DNA from: Eubacteriales Family XIII. Incertae Sedis bacterium
Lineage (GTDB): Bacteria; Bacillota; Clostridia; Peptostreptococcales; Anaerovoracaceae
Direction: 5' to 3'
Assembly: GCA_031272485.1 (NCBI GenBank)
Contig: JAISTV010000011.1
Span: 1 to 32,383, forward strand
DNA: 32,383 nt
Below are positions 1 through 32,383 of the stretch, one piece after another. Made by a program: the position numbers and the translations under genes. Position 1 is the first letter of the stretch. Each line of letters begins with the position of its first letter. Under the pieces are notes generated by a model that saw only the letters and a program-made list of their open reading frames with translations, did no database searches and had not been told where the DNA came from.

Positions 1-1316
1 CGCCGGTGTCCGCCCATAAGGAAACGGGTGCGTACTCGATTCACTTCTACGCGGATCTGTCGAACGGCTCCGCGGTTTACCTCGGCGCGAAAAGCGTCAC
101 GGTGAGCGCGCCTACCGCCGCGGTGCAGATGGGCAGCGTGTATGCGGACGGGAGCTTCTATGTGACGGTTTCCGGCATCCAGTCGGCATCGGGCGTGAGC
201 CAGGTGCAGATTCCCACGTGGACGGTGGCCGGCGGGCAGGACGACATCCGCTGGTACACCGCGACTAAGGTGGATAACGCGACGTATGTGGCCAAGGTGA
301 GCGCGCTGAATCACAATTCCGAGTTCGGCGCTTACACGGCGCACGTGTACCTCACGGCCGGCAATGGCGTGCTTGCCTACGTGGGCGGCGCTGCCGCGAC
401 GCAGACTGCGCCGGCAGCGGTGATTGCTTCCACGTGCACGAACGGGCAGAACGTGAACCTTAGCGCGGCCGGCGTGATTCGCACGCCCGGCGTGACGGCT
501 GTGCGCTTCGCGGTCTGGGGTCCGGCGGCGGTCAGTGGCAACGTGCAGAACGACCTTATCTGGTATGACGGCGTGAACCAGGGCGGCGGCCGCTGGGTGA
601 GCACGGCGCTGGTGAGCAACCACAAGGAGACGGGCGCCTATTCGGTCCACGCCTACGCCACGCTCGCGAACGGCAGCTCGGTCTACCTGGGCGCGAGCAG
701 CTTCACGGTGCGTGCGGCCACGGCGGACGTGTCGGCTGTAAATGTGAACGCGGCAACGGGCACCTTTACGATTCGCCTCGAGAGCATTGAGACGCAGGTG
801 GTACTTGCCACACCGCGCGTGGCGGTTTGGAGTGCGAACGGCGGGCAGGACGACCTCATCTGGTACATGGCGGTGAATAAAGGCAGCGGCGTCTACGAGG
901 TGGCGGTGGACGTGACCAAGCACAAGAGTGACTTTGGCGTCTACTATGCACACGCATACGGGCTCGGCGCCAATGGGATAGATTTCTACCTGGGTGGCAC
1001 AGCCCCCACGCTCGCCGCGCCAACTGTGACGGTGAGCGGCAGTGTCAGCACGCTCGGCAGGAACATAACGGTGAACGTGGCGCAGGCGTTCCGGACGCCG
1101 GGCATCTCCAAGCTGCAGGTGGCAGTCTGGGGTGAGGTAGGCGGCCAGAACGACTTGGTCTGGTATACCATGACCTCGCAAGGAAACGGCAAGTATACGT
1201 ACACGGTTCCGTATACGAATCATAAGGAGCTCGGCACGTATTACCTCCATGTATACGCCACGCTGACAAACGGCACAAGCGTATTCCTGGGCGCGAACAG
1301 CGTGACGGTGCGTTAG
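1..1316 (+). CDS. GBS Bsp-like repeat protein, 5' end outside window
   Basis: The frame is open from the left edge (first full codon at 3), so only the C-terminal part is visible, ending at a TAG at 1314-1316. The protein is a tandem array of about 100-residue modules: one partial and four complete. Each carries the pattern W-x(5-7)-GGQ(N/D)DL-x-WY, a gap, then NHKE-x-G-x-Y-x-x-H-x-Y and NG-x-x-x-YLG. This is the signature of the GBS Bsp-like repeat family, found in secreted or cell-wall-associated proteins of Gram-positive bacteria, often next to cell-wall hydrolase domains. Here no catalytic domain, sortase motif or membrane anchor follows the last repeat, so any enzyme domain and the signal peptide must lie upstream of the window. 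A role in surface attachment or wall binding is inference. Confidence 0.85.
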   Translation, partial: PVSAHKETGAYSIHFYADLSNGSAVYLGAKSVTVSAPTAAVQMGSVYADGSFYVTVSGIQSASGVSQVQIPTWTVAGGQDDIRWYTATKVDNATYVAKVSALNHNSEFGAYTAHVYLTAGNGVLAYVGGAAATQTAPAAVIASTCTNGQNVNLSAAGVIRTPGVTAVRFAVWGPAAVSGNVQNDLIWYDGVNQGGGRWVSTALVSNHKETGAYSVHAYATLANGSSVYLGASSFTVRAATADVSAVNVNAATGTFTIRLESIETQVVLATPRVAVWSANGGQDDLIWYMAVNKGSGVYEVAVDVTKHKSDFGVYYAHAYGLGANGIDFYLGGTAPTLAAPTVTVSGSVSTLGRNITVNVAQAFRTPGISKLQVAVWGEVGGQNDLVWYTMTSQGNGKYTYTVPYTNHKELGTYYLHVYATLTNGTSVFLGANSVTVR

Positions 1317-25441: not shown

Positions 25442-28075
25442 CTAAACTTCGCTGACCGCGCGCACCGCCGCCGCCATAGCCGCCTCCACCTTGGAAACGT
25501 CCTTCGCGCCCGCCTGTGCCATGTCCGCTTTTCCGCCGCCGCCGCCGCCTGCCGCGGCCGCCATCTCCTTGACTATTTTACCCGCGTGGTACCCGGCCTC
25601 CTGCAGGTGGTCGGAAACAGCCACGATAAAGATTACCTTGCCGTCCGTCCTGGAGGCCAGCGCCAGAATGACGTCCTTCTCCGTTCCGCGAATGTCGTCG
25701 CACAGCCCGCGCAGATCCTCTGCCGTATACTCGTCAAACACCTGTGTGACCAGCTTGGCCGGCCCGATCTGCTTAGCCCCCGCCAATAGATCGCCCGCCG
25801 AGCTCTTCATCTGGTCCTGCTTAGCCGCCTCGAGCTCCTTCTTTATGTCTTTCATGTCTGCCAGAAGCCCGTTCACACGCTCCAGAATATAGTCCGGATG
25901 CGACTTGACCACGTCGCCTATCTCCTTGAGGTACGTCTCGGCCTTGTCCAATGGCGAAAGTATGTTCGTACCCGTAATCGCCTCTATGCGCCGCGTGCCA
26001 GACCCGACGGAGCTCTCCGATTCTATCTTGAAAGCCCCTATCTCGCCACTGCTTTTCACGTGCGTTCCTCCGCACAGCTCTATGGAGAAGTCGCCTACCT
26101 CCACCACCCGCACGGTGTCGCCGTACTTCTCGTCGAAGAGGGCCATGGCGCCCTTCTGTTTCGCCTCCGCAAGCGCGCACTCGCTCACCGTAACCGGCTG
26201 AAACTCGTCAATGACGCTGTTGACTATGGCTTCCACCTCCGCAAGCTGCTGCTCGCCTATCCCCTCGTAGTGGCTGAAATCGAACCGCAGCGACTGGGCG
26301 TTAACAAAGGAGCCTGCCTGCTGGACGTGGTCGCCGAGCACCTGGCGCAGCGCCTTGTGCAGCAGGTGCGTGGCCGTGTGGTTGCGCGCCGTGCGATAGC
26401 GGTTAGCCACATTCACCGAGCAGCGAACCTGGTCGCCCGCCTTGAACACACCGCCGCGTACCAAAGCCTCGTGCAGGAACACGCCGCGGACCTTTTTCAC
26501 GTCCGTGACCACCGCGTAGGCGCCGTCGTCGCCCGTTATATCGCCCTTATCGCCCGCCTGTCCGCCGCTCTCCGCGTAAAACGGCGTGCGATCCAGCACG
26601 AAGAGCACCGAAGCGCCCTCGTAAGCTGCGTCCGCCTCCGCGCCGTCCGCAAAAATCCGCAGCACCGTCGCGCCGCCCTGCAGCTGTTCGTAACCCTCGA
26701 ACGTGGTCTTGGGCAGTTCGGCGAAAATCTGCTCGTCCTCCGCCCAGGCCGCGGACTCCGCTACCTTCATGTTCTGGCGGCTGGTCTCGCGCTGCCGCTC
26801 GAGCTCGCGCTCGAACCCTTCTTCGTCTATGTCTATCCCGTGCTCCTCGAGAATCTCCCGCGTAAGCTCCGGGTGGAATCCGTGTGTGTCGTAGAGCTTG
26901 AACACCGTCTTACCGGAAAGCACGCGCTCCTCAAGCCCGGACAGCTCCTCAATATAGCCGTTGAGCATCTCATAGCCCTGCTCCACCGTCGCGGCGAACT
27001 TCTCCTCCTCTATGCGAATCATCTTCTTTATATACGCGGCCTTCTCCACGAGCTCAGGATACGCCTTCCCGGAAACCTCGATAACCCGGTCCGCCAGCTC
27101 CGTAAGGAACAGACGTTTGATGCCCAGTTTCCGCCCGTGAACCCCGGCCCGGCGAAGCAGCCGGCGCAGCACATACCCGCGCTCGACATTGCTCGGAATA
27201 ATCCCGTCCGCAATCATAAACGTCACGGACCGGATGTGGTCGGTAATAATGCGCACGCTCACATCCGTTGCCGCCTGCCCGTCCTCGTACGCCACGCCGG
27301 AAATCTCCGTGACGCCCGTCAGGATGTGCCGTATGGTATCTATGTCAAAGATGGAGTCCGTGTCCTGCATAATGCAGGCGAGTCGCTCGAGGCCCATGCC
27401 GGTGTCAATGTTCGGATGCGGCAGCGGTGTGTAGTTTCCCGCGTCGTCGCGGTTGAACTGTGTGAACACGTGATTCCAAAACTCCACATACCGGTCGCAG
27501 TCGCATCCCGGCTTGCAATCCTCCTTGCCGCAGCCGTATTTCTCGCCGCGATCAAAGTAAATCTCGGAGCACGGACCGCAGGGGCCTGTGCCTATCTCCC
27601 AGAAGTTGTCGTCCTTGCCCAGCCGCACCACGCGCTCCGGCGCTATGCCTATGTCGTTTATCCAGATGTCGTACGCCTCTTCGTCGTCCTCGTAGATGGT
27701 AGCCCACAGCTTGTCCACGGGCATCTCGAGGTTCTGGGTGATAAACTCCCAGCCCCACGTAAGGGATTCGCGCTTGAAGTAGTCGCCAAAGGAGAAGTTT
27801 CCGAGCATCTCGAAGAATGTGCCGTGGCGCGACGTATGCCCCACGTTTTCCAGGTCTCCCGTGCGGATGCACTTCTGGCACGTGGTCATGCGTTTGGACG
27901 GCGGCTGCTCCAGCCCCGCAAAGAAAGGCTTAAGCGGCGCCATGCCCGAGTTGATTATCAGCAGGCTCTTATCGTTTTCCGGCACCAGCGAAAAGCTGGG
28001 CTGGGCATAATGCCCCTTCGAAACATAAAAATCGCGAAAGCGTTCGCGCAGTTCATTCAGTCCTAATTTCTGCAT
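25442..28075 (-). CDS. alaS: Alanyl-tRNA synthetase
   Basis: The 877-residue class II synthetase charges tRNA-Ala. The catalytic core has MQKLGLNELRERFRDFY, SLVPENDKSLLIINSGMAPL and HTSRHGTFFEMLGNFSFGDY. The editing domain carries the metal site HTATHLLHKALRQVLG plus CGGTHVKSSGEIG, which clears mischarged Ser and Gly. The C-terminal DHHA1 part ends in the glycine-rich GGGGGGKADMAQAG. ATG at 28075 is set by GGAGGG four bases upstream, and the protein then starts as usual; the open frame extends 50 codons further but without sense. No T-box leader is visible. Confidence 0.97.
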   Translation of the reverse strand: MQKLGLNELRERFRDFYVSKGHYAQPSFSLVPENDKSLLIINSGMAPLKPFFAGLEQPPSKRMTTCQKCIRTGDLENVGHTSRHGTFFEMLGNFSFGDYFKRESLTWGWEFITQNLEMPVDKLWATIYEDDEEAYDIWINDIGIAPERVVRLGKDDNFWEIGTGPCGPCSEIYFDRGEKYGCGKEDCKPGCDCDRYVEFWNHVFTQFNRDDAGNYTPLPHPNIDTGMGLERLACIMQDTDSIFDIDTIRHILTGVTEISGVAYEDGQAATDVSVRIITDHIRSVTFMIADGIIPSNVERGYVLRRLLRRAGVHGRKLGIKRLFLTELADRVIEVSGKAYPELVEKAAYIKKMIRIEEEKFAATVEQGYEMLNGYIEELSGLEERVLSGKTVFKLYDTHGFHPELTREILEEHGIDIDEEGFERELERQRETSRQNMKVAESAAWAEDEQIFAELPKTTFEGYEQLQGGATVLRIFADGAEADAAYEGASVLFVLDRTPFYAESGGQAGDKGDITGDDGAYAVVTDVKKVRGVFLHEALVRGGVFKAGDQVRCSVNVANRYRTARNHTATHLLHKALRQVLGDHVQQAGSFVNAQSLRFDFSHYEGIGEQQLAEVEAIVNSVIDEFQPVTVSECALAEAKQKGAMALFDEKYGDTVRVVEVGDFSIELCGGTHVKSSGEIGAFKIESESSVGSGTRRIEAITGTNILSPLDKAETYLKEIGDVVKSHPDYILERVNGLLADMKDIKKELEAAKQDQMKSSAGDLLAGAKQIGPAKLVTQVFDEYTAEDLRGLCDDIRGTEKDVILALASRTDGKVIFIVAVSDHLQEAGYHAGKIVKEMAAAAGGGGGGKADMAQAGAKDVSKVEAAMAAAVRAVSEV

Positions 28076-28211: not shown

Positions 28212-28715
28212 CTACTGTGTGTCACGCGTGCGGTGGCGGTAGGATAGCAGCGCTGCTGCGTGCAGCAGGAAGGCCGCTAATACCAGCAGCGTGGTGCGGT
28301 TTATCCAGCCTGCGGCCAGGCGCAGGTTATCGAACAGGAGCCAGACTGCCGGCGTAAGAAAGCCCGTTAGGCCGAGCAGCACGTACAGCACCCTGCCCCG
28401 CCGCTTCCGCTCTTCGCGGCCGCGCGGGTTTATCAGCTGCATCATGGCCGTGAGCACGGCGGCTGCCGAAAGGAGGAGCGAAAGGACGCTCCAGTTTCCG
28501 GTCAGGGCCGCATGAAACCTCTTGGGCACGGTCATACTTTCCGGCGCGTCAATAGCAGGTGGGGTAGGCTCCGTTTCCGGCAAATCCATTGGCGCCTGCT
28601 CTTCCGCGCCGCAAACGCCTGTGCTCAGCAGGATGAGAATGAAAAAGAGAATCGTGATAAGGCCGATAGATAAAAAAGAAAAAAACGGTTTGCTCCCCGT
28701 TTTCTTTGTGTTCAT
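28212..28715 (-). CDS. Small membrane protein related to the giant surface protein's C-terminal domain
   Basis: The 167-residue protein has a lysine-rich start and a hydrophobic segment (about residues 11-31, signal peptide or membrane anchor, ending STGVCGAEE, possibly a lipobox-like cysteine). A Pro/Glu/Asp-rich stretch follows, then three hydrophobic helices starting NWSVLSLLLSAAAVL. The helices and their loops (WLLFDNLRLAAGWINRTT) align by eye with the C-terminus of the large upstream protein (HWSLLSLILSIIAVL, then WIILDDTSLPVAWVNRWT). It is therefore a stand-alone copy of that C-terminal domain. ATG at 28715 is preferred because GGAGG precedes it by nine bases; two earlier in-frame ATGs have no such site. 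Function unknown. Confidence 0.75.
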   Translation of the reverse strand: MNTKKTGSKPFFSFLSIGLITILFFILILLSTGVCGAEEQAPMDLPETEPTPPAIDAPESMTVPKRFHAALTGNWSVLSLLLSAAAVLTAMMQLINPRGREERKRRGRVLYVLLGLTGFLTPAVWLLFDNLRLAAGWINRTTLLVLAAFLLHAAALLSYRHRTRDTQ

Positions 28716-28726
28716 TATGATACCCT

Positions 28727-28771
28727 CCTCTCTTTGGGTGTTTGCCATTATGGTAACACGCCAAAGAGAGG
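28727..28771 (-). promoter_or_regulatory. 45-base hairpin abutting the ribosome binding site
   Basis: CCTCTCTTTGG and CCAAAGAGAGG (28727-28737 and 28761-28771) are perfect 11-bp arms. Inside, GTGTT pairs with AACAC and CCAT with ATGG, for about 20 paired bases with small bulges. On the minus strand the 3' arm runs into the GGAGG Shine-Dalgarno of the small membrane gene. It could terminate the giant gene's transcript, protect the mRNA or limit translation of the small gene. Confidence 0.6.
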
Positions 28772-28807
28772 ATTGCAATTATTCAATAGTTGAAAGATTA
28801 CGTAATT

Positions 28808-31800
28808 TCAAGCATTACAGCGGGTCTTGCCTCGGGCGGAAACTGCCACCTCGTCTTCCTTTTTCTCCGCGTGCTGCTTCTGGAGCTTGTAGATGAGCAG
28901 GAGCGCCAGGTGCACGAGGAAGAGGATGCCTATGACCGGCGTCCAGCGGTTGACCCACGCCACCGGCAGGCTCGTGTCGTCGAGGATAATCCAGGCGAGC
29001 AGCGTGGCGATGCCCACGACTATGGACAGCAGCTTGAGCAGCGAGCCGCCGTGGTACCGCTTCCCGTAGAAGTAGCCTATGAACAGCAGCAGCGAGATGA
29101 GCACCGCGATAATCGAGAGGATGAGCGAGAGCAGGCTCCAGTGGTCGCCCCAGGAGAAGCTGCCCACCGGTATGGTCGTCTCCTCTATGGCATCCTCCGG
29201 CACCGCCGGGTCGGGCGTGTCTATCTCGTCCGGGGTGTCCGGCTCGGCCGGCGTGACGGCCGTGGGCGTGGTCACCTCAGGCTCCGGTTCCGGCTCGGGC
29301 TCCGGCGTGGGCTCCGGATCGGGATCCGGGTCCGGCGTAGGCGTGGGCGGCGTCTCGTTTACGAGCCAGTGCGCCGTGAGCGTGATATTGCCCGTGGTCC
29401 CCGCCGGAACGCTGTAGCTTATGGTGTTCGTCGTAATATCCGTAAAGATGCTGTACGAATAGTCCACCGTCCAGCCCAGGAACGTATAGCCCGTGCGCGT
29501 CGGGTTATTTATGAGCAGCGGCAGCCCCGTGCTCACGTTATACCCCGTGGGGTTTCCGGGCGCGTTCGTCCCGCCGTCCAGATAGTATATGATCTGATAG
29601 TTGGTAATGTTCCAGCGTGCCGTGAGCGTTACGGCCACGCCGTCCTCGTTGTTTGCGCGGCCCGGTGATTCCTGTACGGCCTGCGCCAGCATGAGGCTCC
29701 CGAACGAGTCGCTCGAAATGACCGGCTGCGCGCCCGCCGCCACCGTGGTATCCGGCGTGTAGACCGGGTAGTCTATGTAGGACAGCTCCCAGCCCGCGAA
29801 CGTATAGCCGTCGCGCTGCGGGTTGATGACGGTGGTAAGCCCGGTGTTATCCCAGTGCACGCCCGTCTTGTCCGGCACCGTGGCAACGCCGCCCAGATTC
29901 CCGCCGTCCAGGTCGTACTTCACCGTGTAGCTGTTCAGCGCGTAATGCGTCTTGAGCGTGGTCGGGTAGCCGCTGGCCGACGGCATAAGGAAGGCCGCGC
30001 CTGTAAGATTATCGGCGTTTCCGGCGTCAAAATGGTACCCCTGCCGCACCGTAACCAGGCCGGGGTAGGTCTCCACCCAACTGGGTATCCCGCCCGAGAT
30101 TTCTACAATGGTGGTCGAATAGTAGCTCGTCTCCGTGGAGACCGGCCAGCTCCCGTCCGGCTTCTGATAGATGGTCGAAATGGCATACTGCGGCCGGGCA
30201 AACTGCGCGTGCACCACATTCTTCTGCCCGCCCGTCTCCGCAGCCAAATCGAAGTAGGTTATGGCCACCTCGCTGGCTATGGCGCTCGGCGTTAGATACC
30301 GCACCGTCCCGTCGCCCGCCGTAAACTGCACGTAGTCGAGGTAGTAGCCGCAGCTCCCGTCCGCTATGGCGGAGAGCGTCACGCGGCCCGCCGTTCCCGC
30401 GTCGTGCCAGACCACGCCCGCGTCGGTCGTCCACAGCACGTGGCTGGTGCTCGTGTCAAACTTGAACGTAACAGGCAGGTCCTCGCCGCCCGTAACCTCG
30501 TTAAACGTGCCGCCGGCCGCAGGCGCGTGCTCTATGTACAGCGTCAGGTCCTCCGACTTGGGATAGTAGTACTTCACGATCCCGTATCCGTATGCCCCTG
30601 CGACAATGGGAATGTTGACATCCAGACTGGCAGTCCCGTTACGCGATGGCCGCACCACAGTGGGTTGGGTGCCCGCCACCGGAACCCCGGCCGCGTCAAG
30701 TGCCTGGAAGGAGAAGACGTATTCGTACTTGTTATAGTTCGCGGAAGAAAGCTCATCCGGATAGTTCGTGGAAACCTTCTGCGTGCCGGAGGCCAGGTCC
30801 GTGCTGATCCATACGTTGCCGCTGTAGGTCAGGCGCGCCTGTTCGTAAGTATCCAGATCCTGCGCATAGCCCGTGGTGGTGTTCGTGATGGCATCCCGCA
30901 GCGCGGTAAGCCCTTCGTTGCCGGGCGCAAACTGATCCATCTGCTCCACGTAGAGGGTCTCGGTGCGCGAGGCGGGGACTATGACGACCTGGTTGAACTT
31001 ATAGTTGGTGCCGGATGCGGTGGGCACGACGGTCGGGCCGTAAACCACAGTGTCGGTACCGGTAGCCTGGCTGGTGTTGTTCTGTACACCTATATAACCG
31101 CTGCCCAGAACCGCCTCGGGGTGTATTTCGACAAAGTGACCGTTTACCGGATCGAGGATAGGCGTATCTCCGTTGGCCACGATTCCTATATCGCTCGTCC
31201 ACTTGCCGCCGCTTCCTGAATTATTGGTCTTAAGCGCCTGCTGGGTATTGTTCTTTATCGTGCCGCCCTCGAAGACGAATCGCGTCTTCGAGCCGCCCGT
31301 GACCAGCACGCCGCCGCCGTAGTAGGCCTGGTTACCGGAGATCTCGCCGCCCTTCATGATGAAGCTGGACTGCTCGCTCACGTGTACGGCGCCGCCGCCT
31401 ACGTGGTCAAGGTCTTGGGTCAAAACAGCTGTCGGCAATAGCGTGAACATAGTTGAGCCGTCGTAGGCGCTGTTTCCTTTCATCTCGCCGCCGTACATGA
31501 TAAGCTGCGAACCGAGCGTCAGCTCAAAAACGCCGCCGGAAATTCCATTGTGATTGTCGTTAAGCTTTGCGCCCGGATAAACGTTGATTTGGCCGTACTG
31601 GTCGTAGATTACCCCGCGGCTGGACCAGGAGTACGCCAAAGAGTTGCCGGACCAGCCCTTTCCCACGTTGCCGCAGATTTCGCCGTAGATATTATAGGTA
31701 TTTACGCCGGCGTTCGCGGAGTAAAATGCGCCGTAGTTGCCGGCATATGTGTTGTTGTTCACCTGCCCGGTGGGTCCCAGAGTGAAGGAGTCGCCGCCCG

Positions 31801-32383
31801 CGAAATCCAGCACGCCGCCGTAGCCGCCGCCCTTATTGCCGTTGACCTGCCCGTTGATGTTATACACCGTGCCGCTTGCGTTGCCGGCTATGACGTTGTT
31901 CATCCACTTGGTATAGCCATCGCGTGTGAGTGAATAAAGAAAACCAGGCGAGGTCTCCGTATAATGCCCCTGCCCCTGATTGTTGTTTATCTTTCCGCCG
32001 TCATCCAGCGTGAAGATGCCTATGGGCCTTATCATGGTGCCCGCGATAAAGTTATCCGAAACGTCGCCCGTGCCGGTTATCGTGAAATGGTTGTAACCGG
32101 TGGTGCCTATCAGGTTGTGATACACGCCCGCGGCCGTATTGCTCTTCACCTGCCCCGCGATGGAAGTAAAGGAAGCTTTGTACCCGCCATCCGCCACCGT
32201 GGCGTCCTTGGCTATAATCACTATGCCGTCGTTTGCGGCGTTCGTCTTCATGAGGTTGTTGCTGCTGATTTGCGCGGACGCGCCTATGGTTGTATAACCG
32301 CCCTGGCTGTAGACCACCACGCCGCCGTCTATGGTATTTCCGGAAATGCTCGTGTTGATGGTCGCGCGACCCTTGAAATTATA
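28808..32383 (-). CDS. Giant beta-helix/InlB-repeat surface protein, 5' end outside window
   Basis: The frame is open to the right edge, so the visible 1191 codons are the C-terminal part; GTG at 32320 is internal. From the N-side, about 400 residues are Gly/Asn-rich repeats (e.g. MKGGEISGNQAYYGGGVLV) of the right-handed beta-helix type. A less repetitive part follows. Then come at least two Listeria-Bacteroides/InlB B-type repeats (about 29770-29940, YTVKYDLDGGNLGG to GYTFAGWELSY; and 29400-29620, YQIIYYLDGGTNAPG to GYTFLGWTVDY and ITLTAHW). A Pro/Glu/Asp-rich spacer (about 29180-29345) leads to three membrane helices starting HWSLLSLILSIIAVL (about 28880-29140) and a charged tail. No LPxTG motif is present, so the helices probably anchor it. 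Adhesion is a plausible role but inferred. Confidence 0.85.
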   Translation of the reverse strand, partial: YNFKGRATINTSISGNTIDGGVVVYSQGGYTTIGASAQISSNNLMKTNAANDGIVIIAKDATVADGGYKASFTSIAGQVKSNTAAGVYHNLIGTTGYNHFTITGTGDVSDNFIAGTMIRPIGIFTLDDGGKINNNQGQGHYTETSPGFLYSLTRDGYTKWMNNVIAGNASGTVYNINGQVNGNKGGGYGGVLDFAGGDSFTLGPTGQVNNNTYAGNYGAFYSANAGVNTYNIYGEICGNVGKGWSGNSLAYSWSSRGVIYDQYGQINVYPGAKLNDNHNGISGGVFELTLGSQLIMYGGEMKGNSAYDGSTMFTLLPTAVLTQDLDHVGGGAVHVSEQSSFIMKGGEISGNQAYYGGGVLVTGGSKTRFVFEGGTIKNNTQQALKTNNSGSGGKWTSDIGIVANGDTPILDPVNGHFVEIHPEAVLGSGYIGVQNNTSQATGTDTVVYGPTVVPTASGTNYKFNQVVIVPASRTETLYVEQMDQFAPGNEGLTALRDAITNTTTGYAQDLDTYEQARLTYSGNVWISTDLASGTQKVSTNYPDELSSANYNKYEYVFSFQALDAAGVPVAGTQPTVVRPSRNGTASLDVNIPIVAGAYGYGIVKYYYPKSEDLTLYIEHAPAAGGTFNEVTGGEDLPVTFKFDTSTSHVLWTTDAGVVWHDAGTAGRVTLSAIADGSCGYYLDYVQFTAGDGTVRYLTPSAIASEVAITYFDLAAETGGQKNVVHAQFARPQYAISTIYQKPDGSWPVSTETSYYSTTIVEISGGIPSWVETYPGLVTVRQGYHFDAGNADNLTGAAFLMPSASGYPTTLKTHYALNSYTVKYDLDGGNLGGVATVPDKTGVHWDNTGLTTVINPQRDGYTFAGWELSYIDYPVYTPDTTVAAGAQPVISSDSFGSLMLAQAVQESPGRANNEDGVAVTLTARWNITNYQIIYYLDGGTNAPGNPTGYNVSTGLPLLINNPTRTGYTFLGWTVDYSYSIFTDITTNTISYSVPAGTTGNITLTAHWLVNETPPTPTPDPDPDPEPTPEPEPEPEPEVTTPTAVTPAEPDTPDEIDTPDPAVPEDAIEETTIPVGSFSWGDHWSLLSLILSIIAVLISLLLFIGYFYGKRYHGGSLLKLLSIVVGIATLLAWIILDDTSLPVAWVNRWTPVIGILFLVHLALLLIYKLQKQHAEKKEDEVAVSARGKTRCNA

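Follow-up and report, generated by a model that had tools for sequence, protein, structure and literature searches.

The stretch of DNA considered here, called the window throughout, comprises 32,383 nucleotides and forms one entire contig (JAISTV010000011.1; G000:C9 in our numbering) of an Eubacteriales Family XIII. Incertae Sedis bacterium, whose genome assembly (GCA_031272485.1) amounts to 1.26 Mb at 60.5% completeness. On its minus strand lie, in this order, the 3' part of a gene for a giant surface protein, a gap of 92 bp, a small gene for a protein of 167 residues, and alaS, which served as the anchor for comparing the locus with relatives. The subject of the analysis is the small gene and the relation of its product to the tail of the giant, a three-helix membrane anchor of the FILTED type. 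The features are as follows.

25442..28075, minus strand: alaS, downstream of the small/giant pair (tRNA-synt_2c, E 2.6e-192)
28212..28715, minus strand: small stand-alone FILTED-like gene (P0001), 167 amino acids, with ATG start and Shine-Dalgarno sequence (NF052597, 22.8 bits; hhalign, 99.5% to type II domains)
28215..28496, minus strand: predicted three-helix FILTED-like domain of the small protein, residues 74-167 (homology, profile, model)
28497..28604, minus strand: acidic Pro-rich spacer of the small protein, residues 38-73 (net charge -5; low predicted local distance difference test score, pLDDT)
28521..28532, minus strand: juxtamembrane T-V-P-K of the small protein, containing Pro64, counterpart of the (V/T/I)-P-L-(A/G) motif (alignment column)
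28608..28715, minus strand: signal-peptide-like N-terminus of the small protein, residues 1-36 (basic n-region, hydrophobic 12-30, model helix 12-31)
28726..28772, minus strand: strong RNA hairpin, 3' arm reaching the Shine-Dalgarno sequence of the small gene (folding energy versus shuffles)
28808..32383, minus strand: giant surface-protein gene, N-terminus beyond the contig end (open reading frame, PF09479, NF052597)
28865..29140, minus strand: FILTED domain of the giant (NF052597, 50.0 bits in the genome search and 47.8 in hmmscan, cut-off 40)
29156..29185, minus strand: juxtamembrane motif EETTIPVGSF of the giant, aligned to the type II G-x-VPLG motif
29186..29356, minus strand: acidic Pro-rich linker of the giant (sequence)
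29369..29599, minus strand: best-matched Listeria-Bacteroides repeat of the giant, residues 908-984 (PF09479, whole-protein E 4.6e-13)

The codon positions of the small gene are coding-like, with G+C fractions of 0.60/0.46/0.71 versus 0.55/0.47/0.79 in the giant gene, and its Shine-Dalgarno sequence is good, GGAGGG lying seven bases 5' of the ATG. In the giant, Listeria-Bacteroides repeats (PF09479) precede a Pro/Asp/Glu linker, which leads into a three-helix tail; the small product begins with a signal-like helix, continues with an acidic Pro-rich spacer and ends in a tail of the giant's kind, with the signal-peptide cleavage site assigned by eye. A sequence-only reading of this locus had described a membrane anchor domain both on the giant and on a stand-alone neighbour, the latter with a signal-like helix and an acidic Pro-rich spacer; both descriptions were borne out, with the helix at residues 12-31, a spacer of net charge -5, and the domain recognized as FILTED. 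The motif given there, D(N/D)-x5-AW(I/V)NR, is in place except for its Ala, since the small copy has GW, and is better written D(N/D)-x5-(A/G)W(I/V)NR.

Genome searches retrieved the tail of the giant with the small protein as query (35% identity over ~90 residues, E 1.7e-10) and the small protein with the giant as query (34% over ~90 residues, E 2.7e-12). The local score of the pair, 133, was reached neither in 2000 shuffles of 8-residue blocks (mean 38, best 93) nor in 2000 shuffles with the hydrophobic/polar pattern kept (mean 33, best 83), so the likeness is more than common hydrophobicity. The polar positions D-N/D, W-I/V-N-R and T are common to both proteins. The similarity, which the sequence-only reading had allowed might vanish in a profile comparison, persisted, as hhalign aligned the small protein with 35 domains of the type II subfamily described below, nearly all from giants and one (L125) from a stand-alone protein, at a probability of 99.5% and E 8.3e-23. 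At the level of sequence, the small protein was thus shown to be a homologue of the three-helix domain that forms the C-terminus of the giant next to it, and to belong to the same subfamily, type II.

The three-helix domain corresponds to the NCBIfam model NF052597, named 'FILTED domain-containing surface protein', whose cut-off of 40 bits was passed by the giant (47.8 bits, positions 1-109 of 110) and missed by the small protein (22.8 bits), even though its alignment covered positions 1-107 of 110. The giant's tail is hence a member by the curated rule, and the small protein, devoid of an ectodomain, is classed from its sequence as a divergent FILTED homolog, not as a member. The FILTED/LTED signature, placed on the outer loop by our own reading of the family name, is absent from both, replaced by IILDD in the giant and LLFDN in the small protein, which sets the pair in a divergent subfamily.

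AlphaFold2 predicted three helices, in matching order, in the small protein (77-95, 105-128 and 140-166; pLDDT 72) and in the giant domain (28-50, 58-78 and 92-132; pLDDT 79). In both models two residues are labelled as strand at the Trp-Ser that precedes helix 1 and two more within the outer loop, and these short strands presumably pair with each other. The models, small protein and giant domain alike, gave no Foldseek match in the PDB at E <= 0.001; VIA-align, run with the giant model only, reached a best Z of 8.1, in a range deemed common for helical bundles, and a profile search of solved structures returned chance-level matches only (best E 0.21). In the predicted topology, the small protein would be exported by its signal peptide, leaving the spacer outside; helix 1 would run inward, the very basic loop RGREERKRRGR would be cytoplasmic, the loop FDNLRLAAGWINRTT would face out and the basic tail would lie inside. 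The tail of the giant would adopt the same topology and thereby hold the huge ectodomain at the outer leaflet.

Several known systems resemble this arrangement in part. LPXTG sortase-anchored proteins are likewise exported and show a Pro-containing motif before the membrane segment and a basic tail, but they have one helix in place of the three predicted in FILTED tails, and LPXTG was not found in the last 200 residues of the giant or in the small protein. The idea that FILTED proteins are served by a sortase of their own was considered and is unsupported, as PF04203 matched in 286 of 349 family genomes versus 88 with FILTED, and at least six of the 88 (G072, G138, G181, G182, G188 and G198, incomplete genomes) had no sortase match. 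Listeria-Bacteroides repeats, present in the giant before its linker, had no match in the small protein. NCBIfam NF058595, 'lipo-invert', is likewise described as a C-terminal anchoring domain, and the small protein scored 7.7 bits against its cut-off of 37, giving no membership. A lipobox requires a small residue at -1 before the Cys, and none was found by eye in the small protein, where the residues preceding Cys are T-G-V. The tail of the giant had no tblastn match in 50,697 phage records, and three proteins compared with PHROG gave nothing better than E 0.02. Literature searches found no paper on the FILTED domain, NF052597, lipo-invert or the FILTED motif; FILTED is a database name, and no test of how these giants are anchored on the cell was found.

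FILTED is recurrent in the family, whose surveyed genomes are mostly incomplete metagenome-assembled genomes (MAGs). The genome of the window holds 11 matches at E <= 0.01, 10 of them above the cut-off; 88 of the 349 family genomes matched at E <= 1e-6, all above the cut-off, and in a class-wide sample of 391 genomes five besides the window's own matched at E <= 1e-8, four above the cut-off. A large expansion of such surface proteins was seen in G192, a genome of 2.4 Mb with 44 matches at E <= 1e-4. Among 146 distinct FILTED domains collected, a rough pattern grouped 38 with the window pair as type II (consensus G-x-VPLG-x7-WSLLSL...WLILDD-x-x-LPM-x-WIN-x-WT) and set them apart from 108 others, and in a tree of 44 domains the 38 type II rows split from six type I rows at 99/99. 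The type II consensus has WLILDD instead of LTED, yet the type II domains L022, L023 and L053 pass the NF052597 cut-off. The 25 named loci of the type II scan came from MAGs labelled 'Clostridiales Family XIII bacterium' (19) and from Clostridia bacterium MS499-83 (6); NCBI assigns Family XIII to the Anaerovoracaceae.

NF052597 matches begin at the Trp of WALLNL/WSLLSL, and a conserved P-(L/M)-(A/G/...) motif lies just upstream. In the 139 of the 146 sequences with enough upstream sequence, P[LM][AGSTLY] occurred within 16 residues of the Trp in 72; the two 16-residue stretches beyond gave 20 and 4, and shuffling of the first 16 residues gave a mean of 9.6 (largest 19). In type II the motif often reads QTGN...G-x-VPLG, with [QR][TS]GN upstream in 19 of 35. 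The Pro column, one of five conserved at >=90% in an alignment of 120 sequences, corresponds to Pro64 of the small protein, which keeps both this juxtamembrane Pro and Trp75, and the region reads EETTIPVGSF in the giant and ESMTVPKRF in the small protein, neither a strict P[LM] match. As judged from these alignments, the juxtamembrane Pro-Leu-(Ala/Gly) motif is a new conserved element of the FILTED anchor, located outside the public model.

The stand-alone form is not confined to the window. FILTED domains occurred in reading frames below 320 residues in 41 of the 146 cases, of which 19 are closed and 22 are truncated by the end of their contig, and on our reading 12 of the closed frames, from 11 genomes in eight genera, consist of nothing but a signal peptide, a FILTED domain and, between them, a spacer of ~8 to 150 residues (hereafter stubs). 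They are the window gene, a second gene of the same genome (G000:C15), and those of G193, of G024, G194, G195 and G199, of G187 and G188, of G030 and G371, and of G020. For the two largest genera this count is a lower bound; further searches covered 31 chosen genomes, and membrane helices and signal peptides of other proteins were assigned by eye. Besides the 22 contig-end frames, seven closed ones were not counted: L077, L097, L099 and L111, which look like tails of broken giants, L192 and L195, with an extra C-terminal part, and L100, without a signal peptide. A short FILTED frame in G242 is without a signal peptide.

In three groups the genomic place or a partner gene of the stub was kept. 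Within one genus (G024, G194 and G195), the stub is convergent with a gene for a lysA-like pyridoxal phosphate-dependent decarboxylase that is 82-94% identical; in another (G187 and G188) the gene order around the stub is common to both genomes, with an NAD-synthase gene adjoining; and in G030 and G371, from two genera, the stub directly follows a MerR-family gene, the regulators being 67% identical. The least diverged stub pair, G024/G195, showed nonsynonymous and synonymous divergences (dN and dS) of 0.23 and 0.59, and five other pairs a dN of 0.45-0.82 with dS near saturation (1.7-2.3). Because place or partner is kept in these groups, the stand-alone form is, on comparative grounds, a maintained and recurrent architecture and not random debris. 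A stub also does not seem to require a FILTED giant as its partner, since it is the sole FILTED match at E <= 1e-4 in G194, G195 and G199 (81, 81 and 89% complete) and no second FILTED domain was found in the stretches of 4.4-19 kb fetched around the 11 other stubs; the giant that accompanies the C15 stub lies farther along the contig, ~11 kb from domain to domain.

The surroundings of FILTED genes are otherwise varied. A comparison of 603 open reading frames revealed no partner common to most loci, and a conserved neighbour gene was rejected, the repeated neighbours being ABC-type, kinase-type and other common genes, copies of the same locus, and a cluster of extracytoplasmic function (ECF) sigma genes. 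In G193 (L291:1204-2725, G193:C283), which harbours the other type II stub, the stub comes directly after a gene whose 214-residue exported product matches no family; a tandem paralogue of that product is encoded at the edge of the contig. The G020 stub (L094:8437-12316, G020:C27) is divergent from an ECF sigma gene, which is followed by a gene for a beta-propeller protein (PF09826), and the C15 stub (L089:10937-14482) stands just before a gene for a hybrid histidine kinase of 1181 residues and ~4 kb before the FILTED giant of about 2.4 thousand residues.

For the window gene itself, the reading that we consider fairly probable is that it encodes a real stand-alone FILTED-type membrane protein, cargo-less and working, with a task of its own. 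The small protein would be a member of the anchor family kept for its own membrane task, possibly originating from a tandem adhesin gene whose ectodomain was lost, and it would be expressed with the giant under local control by the hairpin at its ribosome-binding site. This RNA stem (28726-28772; 12+5+3 pairs) lies between the two genes, and the end of its 3' arm falls within AGGAGGG, the Shine-Dalgarno sequence of the small gene; the 111-nucleotide stretch around it folds at -33.9 kcal/mol (z -6.3), with none of 200 shuffles as stable. The hairpin is absent from the set of terminator-like sites, a genome search turned up no further copy of it, and Rfam gave no match at gathering score in the window. 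It is possible, judging by the fold, that the hairpin controls translation of the small gene or mRNA stability between the genes.

Several results weigh against this reading of the window copy as a working protein. The small gene has no close ortholog in the 349 family genomes, its best match outside its own genome being the FILTED domain of a giant in G371 (E 2.6e-16, 39%). An alaS match was present in 20 of 25 chosen genomes, with the gene start visible in 18, and in the 17 other genomes a search of up to 1.5 kb upstream of alaS found no FILTED domain, indicating that the small/giant pair is a local arrangement; these 17 include the only other searched genome of the genus, where a hybrid histidine-kinase gene was found upstream of alaS. 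Of the 12 stubs, 11 exceed the NF052597 cut-off with scores of 42.7 to 84.3 bits, and the window copy alone falls short of it; two signature residues kept by the adjacent giant, the Pro of LPM and the Trp of WT, have also been lost from the window copy. A clade of the small and giant domains was not rejected (cost 1.4 log units; approximately unbiased test, p-AU 0.35). A promoter-like site was not found between the two genes, which fits co-transcription without showing it, and no positive evidence for any function of the small protein was obtained.

Several of these points favour a decayed duplicate, in which a deletion removed the ectodomain from one adhesin gene of a tandem array and the remaining gene now drifts. 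Local decay of the window copy is possible because it has no close ortholog, falls below the cut-off and lacks two signature residues. Tandem FILTED giants exist in the same genome (C18, with reading frames ~0.1 kb apart) and in G109, making an origin of the small gene from its neighbour natural, and a clade with the giant, not rejected by the test, would fit such an origin. The tree is undecided on this: it placed the small domain beside a giant domain of G192 with weak support (88/43) and near the G193 stub (87/73), the bootstrap was not settled, and a clade with the G193 stub was not rejected either (p 0.10). Against drift stand the intact reading frame, start, Shine-Dalgarno sequence, signal peptide and full three-helix domain at ~35% identity, as well as a simple neutral-decay model, with substitutions and without indels, in which the giant's domain, taken to 36% identity, was stop-free in 57 of 1000 runs. 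No frameshifted version of the small gene was seen, with no close ortholog in the 349 family genomes for comparison. Decay, one of the origins that the sequence-only reading had offered, is unlikely for the stubs as a class, as stubs elsewhere retain place or partner gene; for the window copy we regard it as a tentative alternative.

A docking or assembly partner, also offered there, would be a small FILTED protein that packs against the anchor of the giant and aids its insertion, spacing or clustering, an idea that overlaps with that of a working stand-alone protein. The two proteins are of the same subfamily and encoded on the same strand 92 bp apart, the G193 stub also follows an exported-protein gene, and Trp75 and the juxtamembrane Pro are retained. 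Direct docking to the giant is possible on the strength of adjacency and subfamily, but the idea was weakened by the genomes in which the stub is the only FILTED match, by the stubs without a FILTED neighbour in the fetched stretches, C15 being the exception, and by the lack of a conserved neighbour, and we regard it, too, as a tentative alternative.

More speculative, and in our judgement improbable, is the proposal that a membrane enzyme or sensor reads a single recognition unit, composed of the outer loop, the Trp and the (V/T/I)-P-L-(A/G) motif, as a sortase-like or regulated-release signal, and that stubs are its sensors or decoys and not adhesins; four of the 12 stubs adjoin MerR, histidine-kinase or ECF-sigma genes. 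A chance hydrophobic similarity of helices between unrelated genes, favoured by the NF052597 score of the small protein under the cut-off, is refuted in practice by the shuffle test and the hhalign result, as well as disfavoured by the common polar positions, and retains next to no probability.

The significance of the locus is modest, as its core is ordinary, a known anchor domain in a divergent copy; what is new is the cargo-less form as a maintained, recurrent architecture and the juxtamembrane motif. Ectodomain-free natural anchors are ideal minimal objects for expression, topology mapping and structure solution, and the motif supplies residues for mutation. Should stubs turn out to be sensors or partners, a recurrent class of small uncharacterised proteins of Family XIII-type Clostridia would be given a function.

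Some further observations were made along the way. The hairpin was rejected as a general feature of tandem FILTED genes or stubs after six other upstream stretches were folded (z -4.2 for the C18 tandem pair, -2.0 for the G193 stub and -0.6 to 0.5 for the remaining four). Two genomes of one genus encode proteins of 264-275 residues (L192:974-1765 in G180 and L195:3784-4608 in G181), in which a conserved additional part, containing one more hydrophobic stretch, comes after a FILTED-like domain; Pfam gave no match.

ECF sigma genes whose products have a C-terminal membrane helix, assigned by eye, directly follow FILTED genes at six of the 28 G192 loci fetched out of its 44 matches (L253, L261, L272:590-1750, L273, L274 and L278), and the outer end of these sigma factors gave one weak, sub-threshold immunoglobulin-like match. 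An ECF sigma gene lies downstream of a FILTED gene once in G002 (L041) and upstream of a FILTED giant in G371 (L205:4943-6157), and 12 further G371/G372 loci had no ECF sigma gene following on the same strand, with one match on the other strand. A membrane-tethered sigma factor adjoining an adhesin suggests surface sensing. At the left end of the contig (window positions 1-1316), a second partial repeat protein is encoded, with repeated HKETGAYSIH-like stretches.

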